A DNA stretch of 64,000 nucleotides, from contig NZ_ANNV01000164.1 in the NCBI RefSeq assembly GCF_000346755.1, forward strand, positions 186,001 through 250,000, written 5' to 3'. This document shows, in pieces, positions 9,904 through 29,665 of this stretch (position 1 is the first letter of the stretch; each line of letters opens with the position of its first letter). The position numbers and the translations under genes were made by a program. The notes beneath the pieces were generated by a model. The model worked only from the letters and a program-made list of their open reading frames with translations, was not told the origin of the DNA and did not search any database. The stretch is from Pseudomonas sp. CBZ-4 (GTDB lineage: Bacteria > Pseudomonadota > Gammaproteobacteria > Pseudomonadales > Pseudomonadaceae).

Positions 9904-11538
<1,635 letters not shown>

Positions 11539-11554
11539 TGTAACCGACGGCCAC

Positions 11555-11596
11555 AAAAAAGGGCGCCGTGCATTGACTGCACGGCGCCCTTTTTAT
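11555..11596. terminator. Bidirectional rho-independent terminator
   Basis: A perfect 12-base stem GGGCGCCGTGCA/TGCACGGCGCCC with a 5-base loop (11561-11589) is flanked by A6 on the left and T6 on the right. It can end the plus-strand lpoA operon and the convergent OmpA-type gene. Confidence 0.93.
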
Positions 11597-11606
11597 TGCT
11601 GCGGCG

Positions 11607-12374: not shown

Positions 12375-12605
12375 GAAGGAAGCTCCTACTTTTGCATTCT
12401 GTGATGCAGAGGACATTGGCAATGGACCTGTGCCGAGCTTGGAACACGAGAAAGGGCAAAAATTCCATGGGCGGCAGGCACCCGCGCTACAACAGGTGAG
12501 CACACTAAAACCCTAGCAGACGCTGGCTGAACGGGAATTGTCTTTTTCTCTGTAAGTTTCGTCGGAGAGTGGCCACGGGGTTTCCAGAAAAATACCGAGG
12601 GGCTC

Positions 12606-13250
12606 TCAAGCCCTGACAAATGGATTCTCACGCATCTCGTCACCCAGTCGCGTGTCCCGCCCATGCCCGGTCACGACCGTCGCGTCTTCGTCCAGGGTAT
12701 ACAGGCGTTGCTTGATCGAACGCACGATGGTCGCCTGGTCGCCGCCCCACAAATCCGTACGCCCCACGCCGCGCCGAAACAAGGTGTCACCGGCAATCAG
12801 CAGCTTGGCATCGGCAAACCAGAAGCTCATCGAACCCGGTGTATGCCCCGGGGTATGCAGCGCTACGCCACAACCGCAGGCCAGTTCCTCATCATCTTCC
12901 AGCCAGCGATCCGGCGATGGCACCGGGGTGTAGGGCACGCGAAACATCTGGCACTGCATCTCAAGGTTGTCCCACAGGAATTGGTCTTCCTTGTGCAGGT
13001 GCAAGGTGGCGCCAGTCTTCTCTTTCAACTGGCCGGAAGCCAGGAAGTGGTCCAGATGGGCATGGGTATGGATGATGCTCACCACCTTGAGGCCCAGCGC
13101 ATCCAGGCGCGCGAGGATCAATTCGTGGTTGCCGCCCGGGTCGACCACGATGGCTTTTTTGGTGATGGGGTCGCCGATGATGGTGCAGTTGCACTGCAAA
13201 GGGCCGACGGGGAAGGTTTCGCGGATTATCGCGGGCTTTGCGGGTTCCAT
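12606..13250 (-). CDS. MBL-fold metallohydrolase (glyoxalase II / YcbL-like), 5' end supplied by the integrated element
   Basis: The 214-residue product has the metal-binding motif HTHAHLDH near residues 61-68, further ligands in HTPGHTPG and the terminal TGHGRDT segment, matching small glyoxalase-II-like thioesterases. The 43-bp att repeat lies within codons 9-23. The segment upstream of it, including the start codon (MEPAKPAI) and an AGGAA Shine-Dalgarno, therefore belongs to the inserted element. The displaced native start (METLTPTL) is at 26848. The protein is intact, but its promoter has been exchanged. Substrate is not determinable from sequence. Confidence 0.92.
   Translation of the reverse strand: MEPAKPAIIRETFPVGPLQCNCTIIGDPITKKAIVVDPGGNHELILARLDALGLKVVSIIHTHAHLDHFLASGQLKEKTGATLHLHKEDQFLWDNLEMQCQMFRVPYTPVPSPDRWLEDDEELACGCGVALHTPGHTPGSMSFWFADAKLLIAGDTLFRRGVGRTDLWGGDQATIVRSIKQRLYTLDEDATVVTGHGRDTRLGDEMRENPFVRA
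13184..13226. repeat. attL: left copy of the 43-bp direct repeat
   Basis: Identical to 26782-26824 at 42 of 43 positions. It starts with a perfect inverted repeat TGCAGT-TGC-ACTGCA (13184-13198), a plausible integrase core. The single difference (A here, G on the right, position 13200) is synonymous in the MBL gene: CCT versus CCC for the same proline. Confidence 0.9.
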
Positions 13251-13271: not shown

Positions 13272-13294
13272 GGCACATTTTTGGCACAGTGCGA
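13272..13294. repeat. Left inboard repeat, candidate integrase arm site
   Basis: GGCACATTTTTGGCACAGTG (first 20 bases) recurs in the same orientation at 26636-26658 with 21 of 23 bases identical. Each copy contains two GGCACA units. It lies between the MBL and integrase start codons, so a protein bound here could affect both genes. Confidence 0.6.
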
Positions 13295-13300
13295 AAAACG

Positions 13301-14413
13301 ATGGCGACGTTTAGGAAAAAAGGCCCCCACCAATGGCACGCCCAGATCAGACGTAAAGGGTGGCCCCAACAGACACGCACATTCAATACCCAGCTCGAAG
13401 CAAAAACTTGGGCAACCATGATTGAGCGTGAAATGGATGCTGGAGTATTCGTCAGTCGCAGCGAAGCTGAAGCGACCTCCTTTGCCAGCGCCTTGGAGTT
13501 GTACGCCAAAGAGATAACCTGCAAAAAACGCAGTAGTGCATCCGAGCTGTCACGCATCCAAGCTATGCAACGTCATCCATTGGCCCTTCGCTCCCTTGCC
13601 AGCATTCGTGGCTCCGATATGGCGAGTTACCGTGATAGTCGCCTCGAAGAGGGCCTGGCTCCAGCCACGGTGCGCCGCGAACTCGCCTTGATCTCTCACG
13701 TATTCACCATCGCCCGGAAAGAGTGGCGTATGGAGTCTCTGACCAATCCGGTCGAACTCATCCGCCAACCAAGTGTTGACGACTCACGCGAGCGACGAAT
13801 TCTCAGCGCCGATGTATGGACACAAAAAGGTGGGAAGCTGCTGTACGAACACGTGGACGAGCTCGAAATGATCTGCCGCTACTCTCGTTCGACCGAGCTA
13901 CCACAGATCATGACCTTCGCAGTGGAAACAGCAATGCGCCGCAGTGAAATTACTAGCTTGCAAAGCGCTAACGTCAATCTAGACAAGCGAGTTGCTCTGC
14001 TGCTGATAACCAAGAACGGCTCTTCCCGCGGCGTCCCCCTCTCCAGCAAGGCAGCGGGCATATTGAAAAACCTTGCTGAGCGAGACGACGGTCGCTGTTT
14101 TCGGAGTCGGCCGGACTCAATAACTAAGGCATTTGCAAACGCTATCGCCAACGCACGCCACGCCTACACGGAAGGTCTGTCCCTTCACCTCAAACACAAG
14201 AAACTATCACAGGAAAATATCGACAAGCGCATCGAGGCCGATCCGTTCCTAATGGATTTGCGCTTCCACGATTTACGCCATGAGGCAACCTCGCGTCTAG
14301 CGGAAATCTTCCCGCTGCACGAACTGACCAAGATCACGGGCCATCAAGATACGCGCATGCTCATGCGCTATTACCATCCAAAAACGGAGGACTTAGCCAA
14401 GAAGCTCACTTAA
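13301..14413 (+). CDS. Tyrosine site-specific integrase
   Basis: The 370-residue protein has an N-terminal arm-binding/AP2-like segment (MATFRKKGPHQWHAQIRRKG) and a SAM-like core-binding domain. The C-terminal catalytic domain has the first arginine in TAMRRSEITSL, HDLRHEATSRL (H-x-x-R) and TGHQDTRMLMRYYHP with the tyrosine nucleophile. ATG 13301 fits related integrases; a GTG at 13289 would add four residues. No clear Shine-Dalgarno is seen. The gene reads inward from attL and should insert and, with an excisionase, excise the element. Confidence 0.93.
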   Translation: MATFRKKGPHQWHAQIRRKGWPQQTRTFNTQLEAKTWATMIEREMDAGVFVSRSEAEATSFASALELYAKEITCKKRSSASELSRIQAMQRHPLALRSLASIRGSDMASYRDSRLEEGLAPATVRRELALISHVFTIARKEWRMESLTNPVELIRQPSVDDSRERRILSADVWTQKGGKLLYEHVDELEMICRYSRSTELPQIMTFAVETAMRRSEITSLQSANVNLDKRVALLLITKNGSSRGVPLSSKAAGILKNLAERDDGRCFRSRPDSITKAFANAIANARHAYTEGLSLHLKHKKLSQENIDKRIEADPFLMDLRFHDLRHEATSRLAEIFPLHELTKITGHQDTRMLMRYYHPKTEDLAKKLT

Positions 14414-14659: not shown

Positions 14660-15814
14660 TTATAATTCGCTATACAAAGGATCAGTTTTCTGAAAGATAC
14701 CGTCCTCAGATTTTTTAGTTGCCGCCATGTACGAAAATATCTTGCAGTGACCAAAATTTTCGTCAAGCCGTTTTTTGTATCTATGAAACCTATCAGTATT
14801 AGAGATCTCCTTAAAGCTTTGCTTGCAAAGGTTGCCTAATACAAAGTCCTCACTGAGGGGTAAGCCTTTTTCATTATTAGCCCACGCACTAATTAGCAAG
14901 TCCCCCATAAAATTTATACCAAATGACTTATGCATGAGATCGCAAGGATTGCTTTTTTCCTTGTGGCTGTATAGATGCTTTAATGCGCACTGGAGGCGTA
15001 TATTGGTTTTTGTTTTATCCTCTATTCCTTTGAAGTTTTCAATGATGTCAATTGTTTCCTCCCTGGTTAATTTATGTGTACGCAGATACTCTTCGCCGCG
15101 CCCCACGGGAAATGTTCGCATTAATAATAATTCGCTAATATTAGCTTCGCAAAGATCTGAATATATTCTTTTAATTCTGTGTACCGCCATATTTCCGGCG
15201 TGCATTGGTAGCTGCGCTTTTGTACGGACACCAAGGTCTGAAAACTTTTTTGCAATTCTAAGATTTGACGAGTTATACCCTAAAGGTCTAGAACCTTGGG
15301 GGCTACCAGAAGGCTCATCATAAGTAAATTCGTACTCTCCAATGAAGCTAGCCACTTCTTGAGCACCATATTTTTTTATAAAGGCTCCAGTGGACGTTAT
15401 TGATATAGATTCTTTTCCAAATAACTTTGAAGCTGCTTTTATTAGCAAATAATTTTCATAGCATGCTAGGGGGTCACCACCCGCAAAATCGATTTTTACC
15501 TCGTAACCTTTTAGATGGTTCAGTATTTTAATTTTCTCCTCGTACGTAGGCTCTTTTCCCGAGATTTGTCTATCCAGAAGTGCAAGGTCGAACTTAGTTG
15601 GAATCACTTCTGGATATTTTTCTTTAAATAATGATTCAGTGCTTTTTTCGACAAATGTGATATTTCTTAAAGAGTGCTCCCTTACAATTATATTACTGTT
15701 TTTTGAGGCGACATGGACGGCATCGGTGCAGCAAAATTTGCAATCCCATGGACAGACTAAAGTAATATTCCATATTACATCAAGCATATGACTAGACATT
15801 GTGGTTGCTGACAT
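14660..15814 (-). CDS. Radical SAM protein with SPASM/twitch-like C-terminus
   Basis: The 384-residue protein has the radical SAM cluster motif C-x3-C-x2-C as CPWDCKFC (about residues 22-29). It also has the SAM-contacting IDFAGGDPL near 114, and further cysteines in LQC, NPCDLMHKS, GNLCKQS and GHCK resembling a SPASM/twitch auxiliary-cluster domain (GINFMGDLLISAW, then FVLGNL). The start overlaps the stop of the upstream two-TM gene by 23 bases; internal Met codons at 15799 and 15787 are possible. It is strongly A+T-rich compared with the chromosome. The substrate is unknown. It is probably part of a two-gene defence-type module; viperin-like or peptide-modifying activity would both be speculation. 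Confidence 0.85.
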   Translation of the reverse strand: MSATTMSSHMLDVIWNITLVCPWDCKFCCTDAVHVASKNSNIIVREHSLRNITFVEKSTESLFKEKYPEVIPTKFDLALLDRQISGKEPTYEEKIKILNHLKGYEVKIDFAGGDPLACYENYLLIKAASKLFGKESISITSTGAFIKKYGAQEVASFIGEYEFTYDEPSGSPQGSRPLGYNSSNLRIAKKFSDLGVRTKAQLPMHAGNMAVHRIKRIYSDLCEANISELLLMRTFPVGRGEEYLRTHKLTREETIDIIENFKGIEDKTKTNIRLQCALKHLYSHKEKSNPCDLMHKSFGINFMGDLLISAWANNEKGLPLSEDFVLGNLCKQSFKEISNTDRFHRYKKRLDENFGHCKIFSYMAATKKSEDGIFQKTDPLYSEL

Positions 15815-16661
15815 TCAAGACTAAATCGTTGTAGTTGTCTCTCAGATGATTCAGAATATCTTTGTTATTTCTTTTTGTGTTCTGGTCTTCTTCTAGCTCA
15901 TTCAATGTCTTCCAGTGATAAACTCTATCACCAACATTGAAAACATCGCCCTGCAGTCCACTACCGGTGATTTTTACATGAAAAACTTCGAAGTGATATT
16001 CCTTTACTACTTTTTGCGGAGGGTCAAATTTTTCTGATTTAAAATTGAACTCTTGCAGCAAATCGATTTTAATATTCTTTGCATCAATCCCTAGCTTATC
16101 ACCTAAAGACTTAGTGGTACCTTCTTTTTGATTGTTTGTGTACTCCGTTAGCGCTACCTGTTTAACATAGGGCAAAAAATAGCATGCCCAAGATCCTTTC
16201 TTTTCTACGAGAAGTTCAATTTTGCTATGAGCATCTCGTTTTATTATGAAAATAGACGTTCTGTCCGGCTTGTTTAGGATTGATGTATCTATCTTTCTTA
16301 AAAGGAGTTCGAGTGGATTTTCCGCCTTAGCAGATTTAAAAATTGCAAGTACTGTCCAGATGGTGAACACAATGGTCGCACACCATAGGACCGCACTCAT
16401 TCCATCGGGCATCTGAATTGGATGGTTCAGTATTGGTATAGTTACGCTTGGCTGGAAGCTGGTGGTTGTTAGCGCTATTAAAAGAGAAATTAGCACTGTT
16501 AGCGGCAAGTGCCAGGATTTCTTTGCGTCTTGAACTTCATCATATTCCTTGATGTAAAGTTTTAAGTCTGACCTGTTTATCGTTATCTTCTGACATTGTA
16601 TTGTGTTCTCGTAATCGAGACACTTGCAGATTTTATTCCTGAAATTCTGTGCTTTATTCAT
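15792..16661 (-). CDS. Two-TM membrane protein with C-terminal Nudix-like domain (unrecognised family)
   Basis: The 289-residue product (ATG at 16661) has a soluble N-terminus of about 60 residues. Two membrane helices follow, at about 47-67 (LPLTVLISLLIALTTTSF) and 86-104 (AVLWCATIVFTIWTVLAIF), then a roughly 180-residue C-terminal domain. In that domain, alternating beta-strand segments (SIFIIKRD, KIELLVEKKGSWACYFLPYV) and a SLGDKLGI helix followed by YHFEVFHVKI recall a Nudix fold, but the catalytic Nudix box is degenerate. The topology resembles two-TM effectors fused to ligand-sensing domains. It is translationally coupled to the radical SAM gene. The fold assignment is tentative. Confidence 0.6.
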   Translation of the reverse strand: MNKAQNFRNKICKCLDYENTIQCQKITINRSDLKLYIKEYDEVQDAKKSWHLPLTVLISLLIALTTTSFQPSVTIPILNHPIQMPDGMSAVLWCATIVFTIWTVLAIFKSAKAENPLELLLRKIDTSILNKPDRTSIFIIKRDAHSKIELLVEKKGSWACYFLPYVKQVALTEYTNNQKEGTTKSLGDKLGIDAKNIKIDLLQEFNFKSEKFDPPQKVVKEYHFEVFHVKITGSGLQGDVFNVGDRVYHWKTLNELEEDQNTKRNNKDILNHLRDNYNDLVLNVSNHNV

Positions 16662-17451
16662 AATGCTTTTTTCTTTGTGAAAAGTGAAGCTGGCTGTAGA
16701 TATTGTCCCCACGTCCGAATACATACGGTCCGCTCAGACTCGGCAGAGAATTATTTTGTTTTTAATGTACGCTTCGTCGAATAATTCGCTATCCAACCTC
16801 GGTCACTTGAGTAGCGCATTAGCCGAGGCTGTGCAGAACATCGAGAGTGATGACTGCCCTGACTGGTTGATGACGGACGTAGGTATGCCACGTAGGCGTC
16901 ATCGCCAGCTGGTTCTTGCAGCGGCATACCAAGCTGACTCAGCTGGTACCTGGCAGGTTCAGTCCCGCCTGTTTTGCCCCATCGGATGAGAATGGTGTCC
17001 AGGTGTTCCATCACAGTAGTGCTCTGACTGCATTAAGGGATTGGATTCTATCGGCTTGCACGATAAAGAGCTAAGCCTGGTTTTGGCTTACGGCCTTTGG
17101 AGCTAACGGAGGCTAGCGATTCGAAGCTACCCATCCCTAGACGAAAAAAGGCGTGTAACAGGCGGATATCAAGACGATGGACCCGCACGGACTCGAATCG
17201 TGGACCAAAGGATTATGAGTTGCTTGTGAACGCTGCAAGCCTAATGAAACTGGTAGTAGTATAGAGCAGGTAAAATAAGCTGTAGCTACCGTAACTACTA
17301 GGCTTGAGCGAAATTTCGTGAAATTCGCAGAAACCTGAGAGTGTACCTTTTTGCGACGAGAAACGGTAGTCAGACCGTTCCTCGCGGTTCAGCAGGCAGA
17401 GGCCTAGGGTCAGAGTAAGTTGTCTTCTCATTAGTAGGGCTCTTTAGCATA
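16662..17451. other. Non-coding stretch between the two cargo operons
   Basis: Short reading frames exist on both strands (for example 16684-16989 plus, 16751-17014 minus, 17213-17431 minus), but none has a convincing Shine-Dalgarno, family resemblance or composition. The minus-strand promoter of the two-TM/radical SAM pair should lie near 16670-16750. A tRNA 3' fragment sits at 17178-17222. The mixed GC content suggests a patchwork of older junctions. Confidence 0.5.
17178..17222 (-). pseudogene. 3' fragment of a tRNA gene with CAU anticodon (relic attachment site)
   Basis: The minus strand reads CTCATAATCC (anticodon loop with CAT and the start of the 3' stem), then TTTGGTC, then a T-arm CACGATTCGAGTCCGTG (4 of 5 stem pairs), then the acceptor 3' strand ending GGGTCCA. 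The sequence upstream of the anticodon loop does not form the D-arm or 5' acceptor, so only the 3' half is present. Such halves are left by integrases that recombine in the anticodon loop. It resembles the tRNA-Ile2/Met(CAU) class. Confidence 0.7.
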
Positions 17452-19215
17452 TCAAACTGCCGTTATCTCGACGGTATTCATGTGCATCTCTTGATGCTTA
17501 TTGAGAGGCTGAGAAAGGAAGCTACGTTCTGATTTGCCTCCTCCAATGCAAATAAGTTTCGAGTTTTCCGGGAAATAAGTATCTTTTATTGCGCTGACTT
17601 TTATTCTTTCTATGGGGTTTAAAGTCTCATCAGAACCGGCTTCGTCTTTGACGTGCTCAGATATAGAGATGAAAGCCTGGGTGTCCGAAGGTAGATTATT
17701 ACCAATGAATGACAGGATAATATTGAGGTTCGTTTCGTCAATATCCTCTTTGAGTATCGCATCTAGCAAGAATGGTAGCCTATGAGCAGATTTTGAATTT
17801 GCGATTAAAGAGTTAAGTGCAAAGTGATAAGCCATAACGGTCTTGTGAAGTTCAACCCCTTGCCTAGGGAAAGAACTGATTTTGTAAAGATCTAGATATC
17901 TACTGTCGGTCAGCGGTTTGAGTTCCAATAGCGACATGTATTTTACAAAAAGCCTTTTAAATTCAGTTTCTTTGTTGGCTCGCTTGGATAAGGTTTCCTT
18001 TTCTGTAGCCATTGAGCCAAGAGAAGTCTTTATGTTTTCTAGCTCATCGCCGAACCTCTCAATGTCGGCTTGCATTTTTCTGTATAGCACGACGTTAGCT
18101 TTGTTTGACATCCACCGATCAAAAGTAACTCCATCAATGGTGTTGTTTAGTAGTGTGCCGTAGTTGTTAAGTATTTCATTGGATATGCTCGTAATTTTCT
18201 TGCTGGACGTATGAATCTCTGATTTCTTATCTGTTAACTGCTCTGTGATGTGTGACTCAAGTTCTACGGTGTCATTGTATTTTTGATAATGGCTGTATAA
18301 GCCCTCCAGCGAGTAGGTAAGAACTTGTGTGCAGGCCGGGCAGCGATCCACATCATTATAGTTTTGTTTCTTGATGTTGCTTTTTGTTCTTTTAAGAATC
18401 TTGTGATGATTTTGCAGCAAGGAAAGCTTATTGCAAAGGTTTATGTACTTTCTTCTTTCTTCCTCCAGTGAGCTCGACATTTTTATGTAGCTATCAATGT
18501 ACTCCTCTGCCTGTGCTCCGAACTCTTCGTCGACAAGGTTTGCGAATTGGAATTCTGCTTTTTTTCCGTATCGTCTGAGATTGCTAACGTCGGATGATAA
18601 TTTATCTCTTTTTTGTGTAAGCTGCCTGTGCTCAACACGATCAAAATTATTGCTTACGCCTAGGTAGTAGTCTAGATAGTCGTCTTTGAATCCTTTGTAG
18701 TATTGAAGGTTTGAAAACGACTCTCGCAAATACACCCAGCCTACAGACTGAGAAATATAATACGGCAGGAACATGCTTTCGAGAGGGGCTGATTTTAGCT
18801 CCCCTTTCTGTTCAAGCTGCAGATTAAATCCGACCAGGCTTCGCACGTATTCCTTCAGCGCGATGTGCTCGGCACTATTGTCAGCATTGATGCCATGGAA
18901 AGGGACTACTTTTCCAGTCGGTTCTTTAACGTAAATCGAACTTTGTGTTCTTATAATTGAGTATTTGTCTTTCTGACCCTCAACTGTCTTGGAGAAGTCT
19001 ACTCTGAATGTTGGGTGACAGTTAAGGATTTCACTAAGGTTCTCTTTGAGATCATTAACGCCGAATGTGTACAGTAAGCTCTGTATGAGTGAGCTCTTTC
19101 CCGAAGTATTACGGCCGCTGATTATATTCGCACCTGGCGAAAATTCACCGTAGAAGCAGACGTCATGTGATTCGGAACTGACAAATAGCCGGTCAAACGT
19201 TAGAGTTGCACTCAT
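17452..19215 (-). CDS. Rad50/SMC-like ATPase of a two-gene defence system (LmuB-like)
   Basis: The 587-residue protein has a Walker A loop GRNTSGKSS near residues 34-42 and a Q-loop-like LPYYISQSVGW near 150. Long coiled-coil arms lead to a central CPAC zinc-hook motif near 293, with return coils and a C-terminal Walker B-like LPFLLDAILKEDID. This is the architecture of short Rad50/SMC ATPases in Lamassu and ABC-3C defence systems. ATG 19215 lies two bases after the stop of the nuclease gene, so the two are coupled. No LSGG signature is obvious. It is likely to sense foreign DNA ends and license the nuclease. Confidence 0.8.
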   Translation of the reverse strand: MSATLTFDRLFVSSESHDVCFYGEFSPGANIISGRNTSGKSSLIQSLLYTFGVNDLKENLSEILNCHPTFRVDFSKTVEGQKDKYSIIRTQSSIYVKEPTGKVVPFHGINADNSAEHIALKEYVRSLVGFNLQLEQKGELKSAPLESMFLPYYISQSVGWVYLRESFSNLQYYKGFKDDYLDYYLGVSNNFDRVEHRQLTQKRDKLSSDVSNLRRYGKKAEFQFANLVDEEFGAQAEEYIDSYIKMSSSLEEERRKYINLCNKLSLLQNHHKILKRTKSNIKKQNYNDVDRCPACTQVLTYSLEGLYSHYQKYNDTVELESHITEQLTDKKSEIHTSSKKITSISNEILNNYGTLLNNTIDGVTFDRWMSNKANVVLYRKMQADIERFGDELENIKTSLGSMATEKETLSKRANKETEFKRLFVKYMSLLELKPLTDSRYLDLYKISSFPRQGVELHKTVMAYHFALNSLIANSKSAHRLPFLLDAILKEDIDETNLNIILSFIGNNLPSDTQAFISISEHVKDEAGSDETLNPIERIKVSAIKDTYFPENSKLICIGGGKSERSFLSQPLNKHQEMHMNTVEITAV

Positions 19216-19217
19216 TT

Positions 19218-20336
19218 TTAATTCCCGCTGTAGTATTCTACAAACGCACATAGCGCAGCAAAGAAAATATCAATATCTTTTAGATTTATGTTATTAGTAT
19301 TTTTGATGCTGATTGTGTACGCGTCAAACATTTCTTCATAAGAGTAGAAATCGAGAGTGTAATCATTTTCTTTGATAAAGGTTTTTATTATTTGGTGTTC
19401 GTTGTTGCTCATATCCTTTAGGAGTTCGAAGGTGTTTCTGATGTAATTTTCGTGACTCCTTTGAACTCCTAGAGGAACGCGAAACTTCCGTGTTAGCTCT
19501 ACTGAGTTGGCGCGCCATAGTTCGAATGCTTTCTGCTCTGTCTCAATAACATTAATTGCTTTTTTTATTTCGAAGCCCTCAACCCTTTTGGTTTTGTCGA
19601 GCAGGTTGATAATTTTGCGCTGGTTGTATACGGCTTCGACATCTCTAAAGAGACTTAGAAGCAGTTCGACCGCTGCTGAATGGTCTGGAATATGAGGAAA
19701 TTCTCTATGCATCAAACCGACTAATATATCTTTTTGAGAGTTTTTGTTACGGGGAAAATCTACCCACTGGATGTGTAGATTGCTAAATTCTGCCTCGTTG
19801 AAGGTGCTTGATTCTTTGGTACAGTGTTCGCGTACCTTTTCTTTTATTTTGTTTTTTATCTCTTCAGGGATGTCATCATAACGGCTTTCGCTGTTTTGCT
19901 CGTTGAGAAGGTGGATTACGTCAGTTTTGCCTTTTTGCTTTTCTGCTTTTTTTGGTACGTAGCTTAATTTGATGTCGGTGTTTGATATGAAAGTTAAGCT
20001 ATGCGCGTAATCTTTGCACTTTGGCGATGGATCGTTTCTTAAATCATTTCCAACGTCAAGCATCTTAGCTATGATTTCGGCAAATCGCGCATCAATCGTC
20101 CACATCCCGCCTGAAAGTTTTTTTGCTTGATATGAGTCAATCGATTCTATGTTGCTGAGGCAGTCCGATCTGTAGCAAAATAAAAAGTCATCGTGATGTT
20201 CTATGCATAAGAAAAATTCTCGGCTGCTAATTTGCGCGTAGTTATTAAGCAATAAGTACAGCGCGCAATTGCGTTGAAACTCAAAACCTAGCAGGGCTTC
20301 TACACCGGAATTCGCTGCTTTATTTGTCTTGGTCAA
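19218..20336 (-). CDS. DUF4297/Cap4-type nuclease subunit (LmuA-like)
   Basis: The 372-residue product begins with GVEALLGFEFQRNCALYLLL, then FLCIEHHDDFLF and SYQAKKL. This gives the E...D...QxK arrangement of the restriction-endonuclease-like DUF4297/Cap4 nuclease domain in its first 90 residues; the remaining helical part is unassigned. A TTG start at 20336 is supported by AGGTGAG just upstream. It is the first gene of an operon with the Rad50-like ATPase, the layout of type I Lamassu. Other nuclease-plus-ATPase systems cannot be excluded. Confidence 0.75.
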   Translation of the reverse strand: MTKTNKAANSGVEALLGFEFQRNCALYLLLNNYAQISSREFFLCIEHHDDFLFCYRSDCLSNIESIDSYQAKKLSGGMWTIDARFAEIIAKMLDVGNDLRNDPSPKCKDYAHSLTFISNTDIKLSYVPKKAEKQKGKTDVIHLLNEQNSESRYDDIPEEIKNKIKEKVREHCTKESSTFNEAEFSNLHIQWVDFPRNKNSQKDILVGLMHREFPHIPDHSAAVELLLSLFRDVEAVYNQRKIINLLDKTKRVEGFEIKKAINVIETEQKAFELWRANSVELTRKFRVPLGVQRSHENYIRNTFELLKDMSNNEHQIIKTFIKENDYTLDFYSYEEMFDAYTISIKNTNNINLKDIDIFFAALCAFVEYYSGN

Positions 20337-21684: not shown

Positions 21685-21913
21685 TCGCCATGAGTCAACC
21701 ATCGAAACACAGTGGAAAGTCCCTAGCATAACCAGACTTGCCAGCAAGCAGCATCACGACCGAATCACCGGGTCTGTAGCTATGGTCTGCTTTGGCGCCG
21801 ACCTGGGTGGCCAGCCCTTAATGTGTATTTCGTCGCCTGCGTGCCGATTGTCCTTCCTGGCTGCGCCAACATCCAAAGGGAAGCACGTTTCTGAAAGATT
21901 GGTTTTTTAGCGG

Positions 21914-22288
21914 CTAAAATTTGAGTGACTGCACCAGTCGTAGCATTTTGTCTTGATTGGCTTCTATGCGCTTCAGCAGTGCCCTCACAACGCCCGGCGT
22001 CCAAGCGATGTTGGCTAACGCCAGCTTAGGGTCGTCAGTCAGCCAGAGCTTAAGGAGCCCTCCCAGACGTCCTTGATCAGCATTGATCCTTACGAGCTTC
22101 AGCACGTTCTCCGAGTCGATCGTCCCCTTAATCACATGCCCCAAACTAAGGCGCCTCAGATATTCCGCGACAGTCAGGCTTGCGCGGGCAGCATTTTCTT
22201 TAATCAGGGTTTCCTCGTCGGGTAGAACGGGCACTCGCAAGTGCTTGCCATGTTTTCTGGTGTCGAGACCAGGCTTCTTCGTTTGCAT
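21914..22288 (-). CDS. TraJ/MobC-like oriT-binding relaxosome protein
   Basis: The 124-residue product has an N-terminal ribbon-helix-helix region (HLRVPVLPDEETLIKENAARASLTVAEYLRRL) and a C-terminal helical tail (ALLKRIEANQDKMLRLVQSL), matching IncP TraJ/MobC accessory proteins. In RP4, TraJ binds the inverted repeat next to nic and recruits the TraI relaxase. The start has GAGGAAACC upstream. An IncP-type oriT lies 110-150 bases upstream of the start, as expected. No relaxase gene follows it. Confidence 0.82.
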   Translation of the reverse strand: MQTKKPGLDTRKHGKHLRVPVLPDEETLIKENAARASLTVAEYLRRLSLGHVIKGTIDSENVLKLVRINADQGRLGGLLKLWLTDDPKLALANIAWTPGVVRALLKRIEANQDKMLRLVQSLKF

Positions 22289-22398
22289 AACGGTTTCCTC
22301 ATATGTTCATGGTGAACTTCACTTCGCGGATGCGAATGGCCTCGCAGAGCAAGTCCACGTTGAGTGCCGGCAGGCGCGAATGAGTGATAGTGAAATTG

Positions 22399-22441
22399 GC
22401 TGACCGGCTTGCCGGTTAGCTAACCTCACCTATCTTGCCCT
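22399..22441. other. IncP/RP4-type origin of transfer (oriT) with nick region
   Basis: A near-perfect inverted repeat GCTGACCGGC-TT-GCCGGTTAGC (22399-22420) is followed after five bases by TCACCTATCTTGCCC. RP4 oriT has TCACCTATCCTG^CCCG just beyond a TraJ-binding inverted repeat, so only one core base differs. The predicted nick would be after G22437. It lies between the TraJ-like and TraK-like genes, also as in IncP. Confidence 0.82.
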
Positions 22442-22631
22442 GCACTTCGATGCTCCTCTAGCCTTCAATCGGGTGTTGTTTTGGTAAGTAATGCGGTGTT
22501 TTATCTCGGACAATCAATATTATTCGCTATAAGAACGCTCCTAATCAGGTTTTGACCGTACTAAGAACGGTTGATCGACTTAAGAAAGGTAGAGGATCGG
22601 CTTAGCAACGCTTTATTAGCGATTGCGACAC

Positions 22632-22868
22632 TCACCCATCTGATTTCGAGCAAAGCTGGTGGACGTAACGCCGAAACGCCTGATAGCCAAAATTGATTGA
22701 ATTGTCATCTCGTAGTACCTCCCATATTTTTAAAATCGAGCAACCGTGATCAATAGCGCTTTGGATCTCGGCTCTCAGCAGGATGAATGCGGCCCGATTT
22801 TTATCCCCTGTTGATGCGTCTATCGAAGCTGCTACGCGCTCCGCTATTCTCAGTGACAATGACTTCAT
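22632..22868 (-). CDS. TraK-like oriT-binding protein (DUF5338 type)
   Basis: The 78-residue product starts at ATG 22868 with GGAG five bases upstream. Its C-terminal half, ILKIWEVLRDD...FGYQAFRRYVHQL, matches the pattern of IncP TraK-type proteins, which wrap oriT DNA and help the relaxosome form. It lies on the oriT side opposite traJ; unlike in RP4 it is not divergent from traJ but reads in the same direction, towards oriT. A longer reading from 22982 has no ribosome binding site. Confidence 0.65.
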   Translation of the reverse strand: MKSLSLRIAERVAASIDASTGDKNRAAFILLRAEIQSAIDHGCSILKIWEVLRDDNSINFGYQAFRRYVHQLCSKSDG

Positions 22869-22988
22869 GATCGCTCCTAGGGAAGCTAGATTCTTCAACT
22901 GCGTTTTGCCCCTCAATTTTTTATGGCCACCGGTCGGCGCTGATGCTCTATTACAGCCAATACTCTTTAATTGGCCAGGCATATCGAA

Positions 22989-23269: not shown

Positions 23270-23370
23270 CAGCAAGCTCCCAGACAATATCGAAAGCGAT
23301 TTGGACAGATGCAGATTGCGTCAGGTTGGTATAGATTTGCAGGTATAAATTTTTCTGGAAATCCACCTTG

Positions 23371-24231
23371 ATGGCCATGACAACCTCATTTTCCGAGAAA
23401 CAGACTCGAGTTTTCCGAAATCGCCTTAGAACAAAGGCGCTCGTAAATGAGCTATCGTTGCGAGTTACCTTGCCATTCGCGGACACTTTCGCAAGGTGGT
23501 TCGACCAAGAGATGATAAAAGAAGGACTATACAACCGAGCCAATACAGCCGAGAGCAATAGATGGACAGGTAGCTTTAAAGGAAGCACAGCATTACAGAA
23601 TGAGCAGCTGGATCTATTACAGGAACTATTTAGCGATGCACAAGACCTCTTTCACAAAGGTCCATCAAACATTTGGCATGCATTATGGGGAGAGCCCGAC
23701 CAGCTCTGGAAACTTTGCAAAACCAGGATAAATGTAGATGCGCACTTCATGAATGACAAGTCATGCAATGATGAACTTTACAACCAAAACAACCAATACG
23801 ACATTTGCGAAGCATTGAGGATATTCGAAGGCGAAGTAATGCTCGCAACGGAATCAAATTTTCACGAGCTGCCGTTCGAATACTTTATAGAGGCCGTTGC
23901 CCTTTACAGGTTGCACACTCACGCGATCAGATTATTTAAAATAAACTCCGATGGAATAGGAGCTTATAGAGGCCTATTTCAATGCATATCCAATTCCGAC
24001 ATTCAACTCAGGCTAATTCTACTAGGCATACTTGACGACCTAAAAGACGAACTAATTCGGATGGAAACCATAAAGCTACAATCGTATCCAGATTACTGTG
24101 AGAAGGCTGGATTGAGGTATCCACCATCTGACGACGCTGCCAGAAAATATGCTAGCGACCCTTTAGCGATCCATCCCAATTCCAAACGATGGGATGACCT
24201 GAAGTTCGACTGGGTCAGTAGCGATGCGTGA
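23371..24231 (+). CDS. Hypothetical protein, possibly an accessory/defence factor
   Basis: The 286-residue soluble protein (start at 23371 or 23377, no clear Shine-Dalgarno) is not recognised. It is predicted helical, with tryptophan-rich patches (SNIWHALWGEPDQLWKLCKTR near 100; SKRWDDLKFDWVSSDA at the C-terminus) and no membrane helix, signal peptide or known catalytic motif. It is the only plus-strand gene in the transfer/replication half of the element, and is divergent from the HTH gene and its operator. It is moderately A+T-rich, which suggests cargo rather than backbone. Confidence 0.6.
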   Translation: MAMTTSFSEKQTRVFRNRLRTKALVNELSLRVTLPFADTFARWFDQEMIKEGLYNRANTAESNRWTGSFKGSTALQNEQLDLLQELFSDAQDLFHKGPSNIWHALWGEPDQLWKLCKTRINVDAHFMNDKSCNDELYNQNNQYDICEALRIFEGEVMLATESNFHELPFEYFIEAVALYRLHTHAIRLFKINSDGIGAYRGLFQCISNSDIQLRLILLGILDDLKDELIRMETIKLQSYPDYCEKAGLRYPPSDDAARKYASDPLAIHPNSKRWDDLKFDWVSSDA

Positions 24232-24337
24232 TGGTGACGTCGCTGAATCACTCAAGTGTCAGCGTCCCGGCCATTCTGCTGACAAAACAGCACGGCCCAC
24301 TTAGCTTCAGAGTTGTTAACACAAGAGGGACAGTGAG

Positions 24338-24568
24338 ATCTCTTTGATTAAATAAGGATTAAAAAAGGATTAGGGCATTTTCTCCACGCTGCGCTATCCC
24401 TTGCTGCGCAAGGCCTACAGCCGATTATACCCTGTGGATAGTGTGCATCGTATCCCATACTTTCGTGCATCGTATCCCACAACTCTGTGCACCGTATCCC
24501 ATTTCGAGTGCATCGCATCCCATGTCCTGGTGCATCGTATCCCACGTCCAAAAATGCACTTATCCACA
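24338..24568. other. Iteron-type replication origin (oriV) with DnaA boxes
   Basis: Five 15-bp direct repeats of GTGCATCGTATCCCA lie at 24443, 24465, 24487, 24508 and 24530 (periods 22, 22, 21, 22; copies 3 and 4 have one change each). They are bracketed by DnaA boxes: TGTGGATAG at 24433-24441 (8/9 to consensus) and a perfect TTATCCACA at 24560-24568. An A+T-rich stretch with two AAGGATTA units (about 24340-24375) could be the unwinding element. The TrfA-like gene 600 bases away is the expected initiator. Confidence 0.85.
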
Positions 24569-25160
24569 GGCTCACCTACCCAGTTTTTTGTAAGCGTCTG
24601 CCCAACAAACCTTGCATGGATAAATGGGCGGCCACTTAGATGACTTGGCCGGACGGATGTAAGCGTTGGTCATCGATGGAAAGATGTTTTGAACCTCATG
24701 CCCACCGACGCCAAATCGCTCAACAAGCATTGTTATGGCGAGTTGCTCTACAAGCGCTACACGGTTTTTTGAGGGCAAAGAAAAGGGCTACTGGTGACAG
24801 TAGCCCTCGAATTTGGAGCTTGATATTCATATACACACCCTCAAGCAGGGGTGTGGAGGTCTCACCCTACGCCAATGTTCAGCCATCGCCGGGGTTCCTA
24901 CGCAAGTCATTGCCGCTGAAGGCCACTGATTTCGCGCTCGATTGCATCGTATACAAGGTGAGACTTGTGTCAACCAAATTGATCGCACCGTTAGTCCTGG
25001 CGTGGCGGTTGGCGAACAGATAAGCACAGTGCGACTTCGCCGCTCCGAACACAGCGACTACCTTGCCAGCGCCGTCTCAGTGCCTGCACGCATGTCCATC
25101 GGCTACGCAAAGATTTACGCGGACACAATCGTCCTTATTGGCTGGGGGCGGTAGGTGTGT
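24569..25160. other. Non-coding stretch between oriV and rep
   Basis: Small frames occur on both strands (24572-24778 minus, 24640-25023 plus), but none is convincing. An isolated iteron-like TTGCATCGTAT is at 24942-24952, and a short inverted repeat ACAAG/CTTGT lies just after it. A strong hairpin at 24784-24807 is listed separately. Confidence 0.45.
24784..24807 (-). terminator. Candidate terminator downstream of rep
   Basis: AGGGCTACT-GGTGAC-AGTAGCCCT is a perfect 9-bp stem. On the minus strand it is followed by TTTTCTTTG, a moderate U-tract, so it may end the rep transcript before it runs into oriV. Confidence 0.5.
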
Positions 25161-26024
25161 TTACCGACCCCCTTTACGTTTTTTCTTAATCAAATGACGT
25201 TGCTGGCTTGATGTTGGTGTGCGAATCACACATACCCGGTGACCACTCAACCTCCATGAGACGAGAGCCCCAATCAAAACAAGTTCATCAAGCGCTTTAC
25301 TCAGCTGACGTTTAAAACTGGCCGGATGCGCGTTCACGCTCCCACTCAGCCGTTGAATTGTATCTATGCCAAGAGGGAAAGGTTCGGCATGGCTGCAAAA
25401 CCAACCATGGAGCCACAGAGCAAGTGGTTTGCGTCTGAGGAGTACACGCTCATCCCATTCGATTTGAGTCCAGCCTGCCATGTATAGCGCCTCAAGCCGT
25501 GACTCAAGCTCTATGACGTACAAGCCGGTCATCTCGTCCCCAGCCCCTTTGAGCAATGCTCCAAAGAACATGAGGTTGCCATATTTCATTTCAATTGTTG
25601 CCCCCGCAAGACGGACCAGTGCTGATCTCAACCACAATCGATCGCTGGTTCCTGTGGAGCGCTTCAATGTCTTTAACACTTGAACTTCGCTGAACTGAAC
25701 TCGGTTGCCGATCCTATGATGGCGTGCCAAATGAATGACCGTTTCCCAGACGTCTAAATCTGATTGGTCAAGCTGCCATCCAGAAAAGCGAATCTCGACT
25801 CCATCGACAGTAGCTAGCAGTTCACGCTTCAAGGCCTTTCGCCCCTTGCCTTGAATACCTGCAAACAATGCGCACCGCAGCCAAACATTCGGGACTCCTC
25901 GCGTGGAGTCCGGCCAAAGCGGGAGCTGTACCGGAGGTGTCACCGTTTGCGGCGACTTGGCGCGAATTTTTTGTATGCGTGCGTCGAATGTACCTGGAGG
26001 ATTGGAAGTACAGCCAAAACTCAT
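25161..26024 (-). CDS. TrfA-like plasmid replication initiator
   Basis: The 287-residue product has a proline-rich N-terminus, PLWPDSTRGVPNVWLRCALF near residue 35, then LDVWETVIHLARHH. This pattern is typical of the TrfA family of IncP initiators: two winged-helix domains that bind iterons and load the replicative helicase. Length agrees with the short TrfA form (285 residues). Its ATG follows the stop of the AlpA-like gene by two bases, so the two are coupled. The iteron origin lies downstream. It is intact, which suggests that replication is still selected. Confidence 0.85.
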   Translation of the reverse strand: MSFGCTSNPPGTFDARIQKIRAKSPQTVTPPVQLPLWPDSTRGVPNVWLRCALFAGIQGKGRKALKRELLATVDGVEIRFSGWQLDQSDLDVWETVIHLARHHRIGNRVQFSEVQVLKTLKRSTGTSDRLWLRSALVRLAGATIEMKYGNLMFFGALLKGAGDEMTGLYVIELESRLEALYMAGWTQIEWDERVLLRRKPLALWLHGWFCSHAEPFPLGIDTIQRLSGSVNAHPASFKRQLSKALDELVLIGALVSWRLSGHRVCVIRTPTSSQQRHLIKKKRKGGR

Positions 26025-26026
26025 GA

Positions 26027-26353
26027 TCAGACACCAACAGAGGCTGTGCTGCTGTGGCTTCCTGATGAAGGCAAACGAGTCTTCTGCTTTCTGATTTGTT
26101 GCGACTTTGTAGGCCGACCCGGCTTGGCTTTAACAGCCTCATCGGTGGCTGTCCCTGTCGTCAGAGCAAAACCTGATACGTGATCTGCCAACCAGTGCTC
26201 TACGTCTTCTGCGCGCCATAGAAGCCTTTTGGTGCCAGGTAGCCGACAGATCGGTGGCAAGGACAGCGGGTTGCGGGTTACGTCGCTGCGAATGCTTGTG
26301 ACCGATTTATGAATGCAACCAGACAGATCATCAACGGTAAGTAGCGCTTTCAT
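26027..26353 (-). CDS. AlpA/excisionase-like DNA-binding protein
   Basis: The 108-residue product (ATG 26353, AGGAG eight bases upstream) starts MKALLTVDDLSGCIHKSVTS. It has a MerR-like winged helix (SIRSDVTRNPLSLPPICRLPGTKRLLWRAEDVEHWL) typical of AlpA-type regulators and excisionases. The basic, serine-rich tail is disordered. The location beside attR and directly upstream of rep suggests a recombination directionality factor that could link excision to replication; this role is inferred. The longer frame to 26545 lacks an upstream ribosome binding site. Confidence 0.72.
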   Translation of the reverse strand: MKALLTVDDLSGCIHKSVTSIRSDVTRNPLSLPPICRLPGTKRLLWRAEDVEHWLADHVSGFALTTGTATDEAVKAKPGRPTKSQQIRKQKTRLPSSGSHSSTASVGV

Positions 26354-26734: not shown

Positions 26735-26848
26735 TTATACAAACACCTTATAAATCAACGTCATCGCCAGTCGCGTGACATTGCAGTTGCACTGCAAGGG
26801 GCCGACGGGGAAGGTTTCGCGGATAAGTGTCGGGGTCAGGGTTTCCAT
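26735..26848 (-). pseudogene. Stranded native 5' end of the MBL-fold hydrolase gene
   Basis: From ATG 26848 the frame reads METLTPTLIRETFPVGPLQC and then, beyond the att repeat, 15 element-encoded codons to a stop at 26735. Residues 9-22 are the same as in the intact gene at 12606-13250. The native Shine-Dalgarno AGAGGA is six bases upstream. This is the displaced start of the split gene and is still able to be transcribed and translated into a 37-residue peptide. Confidence 0.88.
26782..26824. repeat. attR: right copy of the 43-bp direct repeat
   Basis: Same sequence as 13184-13226 apart from one base. Immediately to its right the native start of the MBL gene continues (complement of 26825-26848), which shows that the chromosome was split inside this gene. 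Confidence 0.9.
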
Positions 26849-26935
26849 GAACGGTCCTCTAGTGCAAATCACATGGCGTTGTCGGGCGACTATCGCCGGA
26901 ACAATTGCACTATTAAACCAGACTGGCCTCAGGCG

Positions 26936-29665
26936 TCAGCCAATCAACCGCAATTCCTGCGCCCGCGCCACCGCCTGGGTGCGCCGCTCCACGCCCAGCT
27001 TGCTGTTGATATGGCTCGCGTGAGTCTTGACCGTGTGCAGGGAGATGAACAACCGGTTGCTGATTTCCTGGTTCGAACAGCCCTCGGCGATCAATTGCAG
27101 CACCGCCATCTCCCGCGCGCTCAGGGTTTCCTGCATCGGCACGGCGTCCGCCACTACGACCGCCGGCAACATCGCCAGTAGCGCTAGGTTCAAGAGGCCA
27201 TGGGGATCCTTGCCCAGTTGTTCGCGCATCCACTCGGGGTGGTTCTCCAGCAGGCGCTGGAACGGTTGCAAAGCGCCACCGGCGCCCGACTCGAGGGCTT
27301 GAGCCACGATCAGGCGCGCCCTGGCGTCTTGACCGCTCTCCAGCAGCAACTGCGCCTGCTGGGTCAGGGCCATGAGGGCGATCATCTGCCGGCCGCTGTT
27401 ATGTGCCTGTTGCGCCAGCTCTTCAAGGCGATGCAGGGCGGCAGCAGATTGATGGCGCGTGGCATCCAGCGCGGCCTGCTGCAAACCGATATGCTGCGGC
27501 AGGTGTGGATGAAATTCCGGCGCGGCCGCAGCGTGTTCACCGTTGTAGGTTTGCCCCAGCCGGGTCAACCAGGCATCGGCCAGGTCGGTGCGGCCCTGTG
27601 CCAGCCACAGTTCGCACTTGATCAGGGTGATCATCGCCAGGTAGTAGATCGGCGGCACGTCCCAGATATGCATCAAGCGCTCGGCCTCGGCCAGTTCAGC
27701 GAATGCCTTGGGGAACTCGCCACGCCGCCCTTCGTAGTTGGCGATCACGCAATGCCCGATGAGCACGCTGATATCACGGCAAGCGCGGGCTTCGGCCAGG
27801 CCCGCACGCAAACGCACGATCCCGGCTTCGGGCTGGCAGCGCATCAGCAACAAGTAGCCTTCGTACAGCGCCAGGCGTGCGCGCACCGCGTACAGCCGCT
27901 GCGGTGCCAGCCCTTGCAAACGCTGCAAACCCTGGCGGACTTCGTCCAAAGAACGCAGGATTTCGCCCCGAGCCTGTAGGACGCGTGCGCGATCGTAGTG
28001 GGCCAAGGCTTCAAACAGTGGATTGCCGACACGCTGCGCCAGCTCCAGGGATTCGCGGTTCAGGCCCCGCGCGCGCCACAGGTCGGCATCGACGATGGCC
28101 AGGTTGGAGAGCGTCGACAGACACATCAACCGCTGGCCGTAACGGCGCTGCGGCAGGCTTTCCAGCGCTTCAGTGCAATAACGCTGGGTCAGCTCGCGAT
28201 CACCCCGGCCGCGCGCGATGATCCCGCTCAGCGCCAGCCACTGGGCCAGCATCGATTTTTGCGCGGTGGCCGACGGCGCCGGCAGGAAGCGGCTGAGGTA
28301 GCCGGACAATTCTTCCGCCGCATCCAGTTGGCACGCCAGGCCCAGGGCCCAGCTGTAGAGCACGATCAAGCGCGGCGTGCTGATCAGCAGGCTGTCAGGC
28401 AAATCCATCTTCCAGCGCAGCAGCATGCCGACATTCTGCTCGGCCAGCAGTTGCTCTTCGGACAGGTTCTGCACCAGGTTGGCCGCCACATCCAGGTGAC
28501 CGGCGCGTAACGCCTGCTCCACTGCTTCGTCGATCAAGCCCTGGGCATTGAACCAGCGGCAGGCGCGCAAATGCAGGCTGGCGGGCGGCAACACGTTGCT
28601 GCTGGCGCGACGGGTGCGCAGCAAGTCGGAGAACAGATGGTGATAACGGTACCAGTGGCCTTGGTCGTCCAGCGGTACCAGGAACACTTGGTGGGCTTGC
28701 AGGTAGCGCAGGATTTCGGCGCTGTCGTGGGCTTCGCGGACGGCGTCGCACAATTCGCTGCAAAACCGCTCTTGCGGCGCGGTGTCGTAAAGGAACGCCT
28801 GCACTTCCGGGGGCAGGCAGTCGATGACCTCTTCCAGCAGGTAATCGCGGATCAGCCCTTCGCCACCATGCAGGCTTTGCGGCAACGCGCCGTCGCTGCC
28901 AGCTTCGGAAGCCGCCAGCACCCAGAAGCGCAGGCCAGCCACCCAGCCTTCGCTGCGGCGGATCAGGTTGTCGAGGGCTTCGCCGCGCAATGAGCTGCTG
29001 TGGCGGTCCAGTAAGGCCAGGGACTCGGCATGGGTCAGGCGCAGGTCTTGCTCATGCAGCTCCAGCAAGTGCCGTGACAAACGCAGCCGCGCCAGGTGCC
29101 AATCGGGACGCTGGCGGCTGGTGACCAATACCACCAGGCCATCGGGTAAATGATTGAGGAAAAATTGCAGGCAGCGGTCGAGCACCGGGCCCTGGGCCAG
29201 ATGATAGTCATCCAGCACCAGCAACAGCGGCGCACGGGTGGACAGGTGGACGGTCAACTCGTCGAGCAGGCCATCGAGCCATTCTTCAAAGGCGAACGGT
29301 TGATGACGCTGGCGCATCTTCAACAGGCCCAGGGATTGGGCGCCAAGTTGCGGAAAATAGTGCTGCAAGCCATCGAGCAGGCGCTCCAGGAAGCGGCCGG
29401 GATCATTGTCCCGTGGGCTCAGGCCCAGCCACAGGCTTTGCCAGTGCGCGGGCAGGCTCTGGCAGAACTCCACCGCCAGCGAACTCTTGCCGAACCCCGC
29501 CGGCGCGCTGACCAGCAACAGACGCCCGTCCAGCCCGGCAGCCAGCCGTTCGCACAGCCGCGGTCGCAGCACGTAGCCGTCAGGCAGGGGGGGCCTGTAG
29601 AAGCGACCTTCCAGGGTCGGAATCACCGCACTGGCAGGCCCTTGGATTCGGGACAGATCAGTCAT
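26936..29665 (-). CDS. MalT-like LuxR-family transcriptional activator
   Basis: The 909-residue protein has an N-terminal STAND NTPase with Walker A (SAPAGFGKSS near residue 55) and Walker B-like LLLVLDDYH near 150. A long helical TPR-like sensor region follows, then a C-terminal LuxR helix-turn-helix (SAREMAVLQLIAEGCSNQEI...TVKTHASHINSKL). MalT-type regulators are ATP- and ligand-dependent activators. The start at 29665 (MTDLSRIQG) has AAGAG upstream; earlier starts add unrelated residues reaching into a REP element. It probably controls the neighbouring DUF1329-DUF1302-acyl-CoA ligase genes, all on the same strand. Confidence 0.9.
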   Translation of the reverse strand: MTDLSRIQGPASAVIPTLEGRFYRPPLPDGYVLRPRLCERLAAGLDGRLLLVSAPAGFGKSSLAVEFCQSLPAHWQSLWLGLSPRDNDPGRFLERLLDGLQHYFPQLGAQSLGLLKMRQRHQPFAFEEWLDGLLDELTVHLSTRAPLLLVLDDYHLAQGPVLDRCLQFFLNHLPDGLVVLVTSRQRPDWHLARLRLSRHLLELHEQDLRLTHAESLALLDRHSSSLRGEALDNLIRRSEGWVAGLRFWVLAASEAGSDGALPQSLHGGEGLIRDYLLEEVIDCLPPEVQAFLYDTAPQERFCSELCDAVREAHDSAEILRYLQAHQVFLVPLDDQGHWYRYHHLFSDLLRTRRASSNVLPPASLHLRACRWFNAQGLIDEAVEQALRAGHLDVAANLVQNLSEEQLLAEQNVGMLLRWKMDLPDSLLISTPRLIVLYSWALGLACQLDAAEELSGYLSRFLPAPSATAQKSMLAQWLALSGIIARGRGDRELTQRYCTEALESLPQRRYGQRLMCLSTLSNLAIVDADLWRARGLNRESLELAQRVGNPLFEALAHYDRARVLQARGEILRSLDEVRQGLQRLQGLAPQRLYAVRARLALYEGYLLLMRCQPEAGIVRLRAGLAEARACRDISVLIGHCVIANYEGRRGEFPKAFAELAEAERLMHIWDVPPIYYLAMITLIKCELWLAQGRTDLADAWLTRLGQTYNGEHAAAAPEFHPHLPQHIGLQQAALDATRHQSAAALHRLEELAQQAHNSGRQMIALMALTQQAQLLLESGQDARARLIVAQALESGAGGALQPFQRLLENHPEWMREQLGKDPHGLLNLALLAMLPAVVVADAVPMQETLSAREMAVLQLIAEGCSNQEISNRLFISLHTVKTHASHINSKLGVERRTQAVARAQELRLIG

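Follow-up and report, generated by a model that had tools for sequence, protein, structure and literature searches.

Several integrative islands that carry a plasmid-type replicon have been described, and the closest to the locus studied here is SGI1. Passages of three reports present SGI1 and its related elements as integrative mobilizable islands with an int gene and an iteron oriV located directly downstream of rep, accompanied by a DnaA box and A+T-rich regions (PMC7433901, PMC8409611, PMC9035990). The rep families of these elements vary and include TrfA (PF07042) and RepA_C (PF04796), according to part of PMC9035990. SGI1 sits in trmE and is described with the atypical relaxase MpsA, IncA/IncC helpers and AcaCD in excerpts of PMC8409611. 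In a section of PMC7433901, deletion of rep or oriV was reported to abolish replication of the excised form and still to allow excision, and SGI1 serves here as the model for the working of our element. A second group consists of GIsul2 and its relatives, which a portion of PMC5704250 proposes to be IncP-mobilised islands devoid of a relaxase and in which GIsul2 is listed with RepA/RepC; the alpA gene of GIsul2 and its integration downstream of guaA are mentioned in an extract of PMC9376610. The IncP islands of Burkholderia glumae and Brucella, treated in the same portion of PMC5704250, have IncP-type TraJ and TraK, a proposed IncP helper and a MobP relaxase of their own.

We analysed a stretch of 64,000 nucleotides (64 kb) from Pseudomonas sp. 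CBZ-4, called here the window, and found a 13.6-kb element in the chromosome, the features of which are collected in Table 1. Unlike SGI1, it is inserted in an MBL-fold hydrolase gene and not in trmE, and carries an IncP-type oriT, traJ and a KorB-like site. Like GIsul2, it showed no relaxase of its own (TraI and MobQ queries, Pfam on 19 proteins), and two related Pseudomonas elements, G012 and G303, share with GIsul2 the IncP-type trbJ-trbK-trbL genes (PMC5704250, in part). In contrast to GIsul2, the window element has TrfA with iterons and traJ/traK, lacks trbJ-trbK-trbL and is not inserted at guaA; it differs from the Burkholderia glumae and Brucella islands in that no IncP-type relaxase was found. 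With the IncP-1 plasmid pB1 it has in common the TrfA family, the oriT type, traJ, the KorB-like site and IncP-1-iteron-like motifs in the origin region, whereas its own iterons differ in sequence and only traJ and traK matched among the pB1 transfer genes. The closest plasmid initiators, at about 50% identity, are those of pNWAT02 (Nitrosococcus) and of large P. aeruginosa plasmids; arrays of about 22-bp period follow trfA in L041 and L042, but these are plasmids with other iteron sequences and have no close relative of the window integrase. In the open-access literature, searched by titles and abstract openings, we found no paper on MBL-gene-targeted Pseudomonas islands with TrfA. We consider it probable that the feature at 24.4 kb is the rep and oriV replication module of an integrative mobilizable element that would replicate after excision and be mobilised by an IncP-like helper.

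Table 1 Features of the integrated element and its insertion site, with positions in the window
Feature	Position	Strand	Description
MBL-fold hydrolase gene	12606-13250	-	chromosomal; insertion site in its 5' end
attL core	13184-13226		43-bp overlap aligning the window flanks to the G302 empty site; repeat pair; within the 5' end of the MBL-fold hydrolase gene
Tyrosine integrase gene	13289-14413	+	374 aa; Pfam Phage_integrase E 4.2e-22; relatives in 10 other genomes adjoin the same MBL gene
KorB-operator-like site	21906-21918		TTTAGCGGCTAAA; at the traJ stop; sole exact match in the window
traJ	21914-22288	-	relaxosome accessory gene; NCBIfam TraJ equivalog 142.6 bits, cut-off 134; Pfam NikA-like
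IncP-type oriT-like stretch	22335-22445	+	limits approximate; nic-like CCTATCTTGCC at 22429-22439
traK-like gene (DUF5338)	22632-22982	-	start codon uncertain; Pfam E 3e-15; 46% identity to pB1 TraK over 79 aa
Gene with no assigned function	23368-24231	+	replicon neighbour; G012, G266 and G303 also have a distant homologue (23-30% identity) near the replicon
IncP-1-iteron-like site	24249-24261	-	TGACACTTGAGTG; 1 mismatch
Weak second IncP-1-iteron-like site	24317-24329	+	3 mismatches; L009 and G012 have their exact copy at this place
A+T-rich block	about 24340-24376		contains TAATC repeats and is likely the DNA-unwinding element; L009 and G012 conserve it
DnaA box CTATCCACA	24433-24441	-	8/9, one mismatch; kept in L009 and G012
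Five iterons	24443-24544	+	15-mer GTGCATCGTATCCCA at 24443-24457, 24465-24479, 24487-24501, 24508-24522 and 24530-24544; spacing 22, 22, 21, 22
Perfect DnaA box TTATCCACA	24560-24568	+	kept in L009; not seen in G012
Insertion scar	about 24583-25160		about 580 bp separating oriV from trfA; approximate edges; L009 and G012 lack it
trfA-family initiator gene	25161-26024	-	287 aa; Pfam TrfA
HTH gene	26027-26353	-	108 aa counted from the conserved ATG; its end is 2 bp upstream of trfA; homologues lie between attR and rep at 8 right ends
Repeats GGCACA and CACTGCAA	26636-26704		in the interval from attR to the HTH gene; might be integrase-arm or promoter sites
attR core	26782-26824		repeat pair and empty-site alignment

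Insertion site and element family

The initial annotation had taken the replicon to lie in an integrated element, and this was borne out by the empty site of the same-species genome G302, which lacks the element and aligns to window positions 11501-13226 and 26782-28500 with an overlap of 43 bp, the att core. Integrase relatives (E <= 1e-110) were present in 11 of 398 genomes of the genus, that of the window included, each beside a homologue of the same MBL gene, and in the DNA fetched a clear second att core was found in seven of the eleven (six besides that of the window). The element has thus the site-specific integration, the att repeats and the empty site elsewhere that characterise an integrative mobilizable element. 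Among the remaining genomes, the integrase match of G178 is partial (residues 1-324) and its second core degenerate (12 mismatches), and G154, G369 and G317 gave no second core in the 20 kb fetched, which says nothing for or against. The presence of a plasmid-type rep, oriT and oriV inside a chromosome would also be expected if a plasmid had integrated a single time and left a remnant there, with no recurrent mobile element. This origin is scarcely credible, because the clean empty site and the integrase relatives, which adjoin the same gene in 10 further genomes and have a second att core at six of these, form a multi-genome family that already contradicts it.

No plasmid holding most of the element was found among 72,556 plasmid records, in which integrase relatives at E <= 1e-60 occurred in only three, all with less than 45% identity; a plasmid form of the whole element was therefore rejected. 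We observed also 18 other chromosomal TrfA stretches in the genus (L048-L065), most of them with their own arrays of about 22 bp, and in 8 of the 18 the same 17-20-kb stretch also encodes an integrase that is less closely related (35-42% identical). At the insertion site, the upstream DNA, the start and the first codons of the MBL-fold hydrolase gene are exchanged for element-supplied ones (12606-13250, 26782-26861), and the N-terminus of the hydrolase reads METLTPTLIRETFPVG at the empty site and MEPAKPAIIRETFPVG in the window.

Initiator gene, origin and the module next to attR

The trfA gene, described at first sight as intact, proved to be an ORF without stops, and its product matched Pfam TrfA (PF07042) with an E value of 2.5e-11 and 43.6 bits for a cut-off of 22; its initiator domain is thus above the curated cut-off, as in a TrfA-family theta replicon. 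The identity with pB1 TrfA is 26% over 228 aa, and when TrfA was searched again across the family, a single additional genome, with 46% identity, came up at E <= 1e-60. The dN/dS ratio was 0.075 for trfA compared with L009 (at a high dS of 1.6), 0.057 for int compared with G012 and 0.15-0.18 for the HTH gene; with dS of 1.0-1.9 across the comparisons these ratios are rough, and trfA compared with G012 allowed no dS estimate. No solved structure related to Rep by sequence was found at E <= 1, and the structure predicted from a two-row alignment had a pLDDT of 36 and was not used for a fold search. A phage origin was rejected, as 50,697 phage records gave no TrfA match and viral contigs contained neither TrfA by peptide-pattern scan nor the exact iteron-pair pattern.

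The five regular iterons of about 22-bp period, the flanking DnaA boxes, one of them perfect, and the A+T-rich zone reported in the initial annotation were all found again, with the boxes on either side of the array. Within two mismatches, GTGCATCGTATCCCA had eight matches in the whole 6.5-Mb genome, namely the five array copies and three scattered copies with two mismatches, and the reversed control pattern had five. The perfect box is the only exact match to TTWTNCACA in the window. The locus shows therefore direct repeats of helical-turn spacing near rep together with a DnaA box and an A+T-rich region, as in iteron-type theta replicons. The Pseudomonas yangonensis locus L009 and G012 keep the iteron cores, the spacing, which is 22, 21, 22, 22 when counted from rep, the CTATCCACA box and the TAATC-rich block, while the TrfA protein has diverged to 80% and 61% amino acid identity, respectively (aligned codons). 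Iterons of the TGGGATACGRTGCAC type were found only in the window, L009 and G012, and TAATC-type blocks were also seen by eye after the iterons of the TrfA plasmids L041, L042 and L043.

The occurrence of such arrays was examined by two scans. When 453 stretches, each 1.5 kb long and taken from 34 sources picked for rep or integrase relatives or the empty site, were scanned de novo for repeats, 23 of them had at least four copies. Eighteen of these adjoin rep genes, with a spacing of about 22 bp or multiples, and the other five, which do not, belong to L055 (one, 14-bp period) and L089 (four, 24-bp period), so that arrays of about 22-bp period were seen solely beside rep genes. The second scan covered both sides of rep at 26 TrfA loci (the window, L009, five of 562 plasmid records and 19 chromosomal loci from 35 genomes with matches). 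An array of at least three copies was located downstream of rep at 21 loci and upstream at none; by the same method L055, L056, L059, L062 and L064 had no array, and shuffled controls gave zero arrays. Iteron arrays can serve as incompatibility determinants, and the repeats might thus mainly regulate or titrate Rep, for copy control or incompatibility with related plasmids, and not form an origin. We judge this very unlikely, as the DnaA box and the TAATC-rich block are conserved together with the iterons, the array follows trfA instead of occupying a trfA promoter, and plasmids with TrfA relatives show a similar layout.

The replicon had been called apparently complete, and all of its parts are indeed present; it is nevertheless not undisturbed, since a scar of about 580 bp that had passed unmentioned separates trfA from oriV. 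The gap from the aligned end of trfA to the start of the array is 619 bp in the window versus 36 bp and 19 bp in its two closest relatives, L009 and G012, respectively. One piece of the scar (24659-24983) resembles P. syringae plasmid DNA and another (about 24998-25104) resembles tnpB of IS66. On its minus strand, downstream of trfA, we noted a hairpin of 11 pairs with a T-rich tail (24783-24808), which could stop trfA transcription ahead of the origin, such patterns being equally frequent in shuffled sequences. The scar might indicate that the replicon is a fossil from a plasmid-like ancestor that no longer works in CBZ-4. We find this unlikely: the scar breaks neither trfA nor oriV and changes only the trfA end, the iterons, DnaA boxes and A+T block are intact, and trfA, the HTH gene and int are all open, with dN/dS of 0.057-0.18 where it could be estimated. 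Moreover, the same-species G302 has no element, so its acquisition may be recent.

The order inward from attR is HTH gene, rep and iteron array at eight of the nine right ends read, the eighth being that of L009, where the integrase end is off the contig and one further ORF stands between attR and the HTH gene. The right end of G178 has neither rep nor iterons. The rep gene is of the TrfA type (PF07042) at seven of the eight ends, including that of the window, and of the RepA_C type (PF04796) in G078; in G147, the match to the window TrfA ran across a TGA, yet the 348-aa ORF of G147 is open. An exact DnaA box is located near the array at seven of the eight ends, G012 showing only a box of 8/9. 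The iteron sequence follows the clade, with TCGGGGTTG..TTCC-like repeats in G266 and G303 and TCGGGGTA.CTGCGC-like repeats in G395 and G147. The module is thus constant in place and variable in kind, as part of PMC9035990 reports for the SGI1-related elements.

The HTH protein is likely an excisionase or a regulator; its homologues in G266, G395 and G012 match HTH_17 below the Pfam cut-off. None of the five TrfA plasmid loci read matched it at E <= 10, and it was therefore taken as belonging to the integrative elements; weak HTH matches precede trfA in the chromosomal TrfA loci L053 (E 5e-4) and L061 (E 0.15). Given the operon-like order of the HTH gene and trfA near attR, excision and replication may be switched on together. 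A promoter scan ahead of the HTH gene gave no promoter-like site. In the stretch separating attR from the HTH gene, seven of eight elements share an aligned TGTGnCA...TGTGCC pair, which might correspond to integrase-arm sites.

IncP-type mobilisation region and IncP-1 iteron-like sites

Three plasmids, of which pB1 is typed IncP and the others MOBP, also have the KorB-like motif directly after traJ. The oriT was recognised by eye from its likeness, hairpin and nic region included, to these three plasmids and to the elements G303 and G012; the window element has accordingly mobilisation genes and, by likeness, an oriT, as an integrative mobilizable element does. Three TraI N-terminal parts and one MobQ, used as queries at E <= 1, detected no IncP-type relaxase in the element, while the TraI controls matched; other relaxase families were sought via Pfam on the 19 proteins. 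Neither the IncP-type mobilisation region nor the lack of such a relaxase figures in the initial annotation. When 32 pB1 protein queries were used, with a partial TraI and a cut, out-of-frame and thus uninformative TraH, only TraJ, TraK and TrfA matched the element (E <= 1e-3). Mating-pair formation genes, which a conjugative, self-transmissible element would have, were absent from these matches, and pB1 TrbE had no match in the host genome, so that no IncP-type helper was detected in this search, run without a positive control.

A search for trbJ-trbK-trbL at E <= 1e-3 gave nothing in the window element. In G012 and G303 all three genes matched, with TrbJ 69% identical to that of pB1 and TrbL matching in two pieces, and this difference counts in favour of a replicon that no longer works in CBZ-4; the presence of the genes in two family members also counts for the mobilizable element that we favour. 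Exact KorB-operator-like sites numbered four in G012 (L082, L047) and three in G303 (L084), some of them near trbJ-trbL; KorA operators, sought with the motif GTTTAGCTAAAC, had no exact match in the stretches scanned.

The IncP-1 iteron is printed as TGACACTTGAGGGGC for another IncP-1 plasmid in an excerpt of PMC3614916, and TGACACTTGAGGG occurs in eight exact copies in the pB1 stretch read. The window element is not an IncP-1 replicon of this kind, its array being made of GTGCATCGTATCCCA and not of TGACACTTGAGGGGC iterons. L009 and G012 each have a single exact copy of TGACACTTGAGGG in the origin region, and G012 has an additional inverted copy with one mismatch there. The copies of the window are degenerate where those of L009 and G012 are exact, which also speaks for a loss of function in CBZ-4. 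Within one mismatch, TGACACTTGAGGG had three matches in the 6.5-Mb genome, one of them in the origin region, and the reversed control also had three, so that only its position is notable. In dinucleotide shuffles of the origin regions, a match within one mismatch was obtained in 4, 2 and 0 of 3000 (window, L009 and G012, respectively) and an exact match in none; these numbers overstate the case, as TGACACTTGAGGG was picked after viewing the sequence and the three origins share ancestry. The other fetched loci (about 948 kb, duplicates included and pB1 left out) had one further site, in G303 between attR and the HTH gene, and we estimate that about one such match is expected by chance in this length. 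TGACACTTGAGGG was missing from the five TrfA plasmid loci read, as well as, within two mismatches, from the vicinity of the origins of G266, G395, G078 and G147, and the IncP-1 iteron is thus not general in the family.

It is conceivable, although we hold it rather doubtful, that the origin responds to two initiators, the helper-type iteron TGACACTTGAGGG beside the A+T block allowing the IncP-1 TrfA of the helper to bind the island origin. The island would then sense the helper and replicate only when transfer is possible; alternatively, handcuffing with the origin of the helper would lower the helper copy number.

Proposed working of the element and its cargo

For the mobilizable element that we favour, we propose that a signal, probably tied to an IncP-like helper, would switch on the HTH gene and trfA pair, and that the HTH protein would direct Int toward excision. 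TrfA would bind the five iterons, DnaA would join at the two boxes and the TAATC-rich block would open, and the excised circle might undergo theta replication for a limited time. The helper relaxase would nick the IncP-type oriT, its mating apparatus would transfer the circle, and the element would re-integrate in the recipient at the 5' end of the MBL-fold hydrolase gene. The initial annotation had proposed that the excised circle could replicate, and comparison supports this, through the rep-oriV module at the right ends, the conserved iterons and the trfA dN/dS ratio with its high dS. Weighing against the proposal are the scar with its hairpin, the missing promoter-like site ahead of the HTH gene, the high dS, the five TrfA loci that gave no array, the G178 right end, the lack of a plasmid with most of the element and the unmatched TrbE. 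Repression of the origin while the element is integrated is a reasonable guess.

If this is true, IncP-like-dependent Pseudomonas islands would maintain themselves by a complete plasmid origin located after a gene that likely acts in excision, and the strategy of SGI1 and IncC in enterics would extend to a second helper system. How islands may detect or harm helper plasmids could then be approached through the helper-type iterons of the origin region. As cargo, the element carries a Lamassu-type defence pair (17452-20336), with LmuA and LmuB detected by PADLOC at E 1.4e-148 and E 2.8e-247, respectively, and the replication module may in that case also aid the spread of anti-phage defence. Next to the Lamassu genes (14660-16724) are encoded a radical SAM/SPASM protein with weak viperin similarity only (E 7e-5) and a neighbour without family match.
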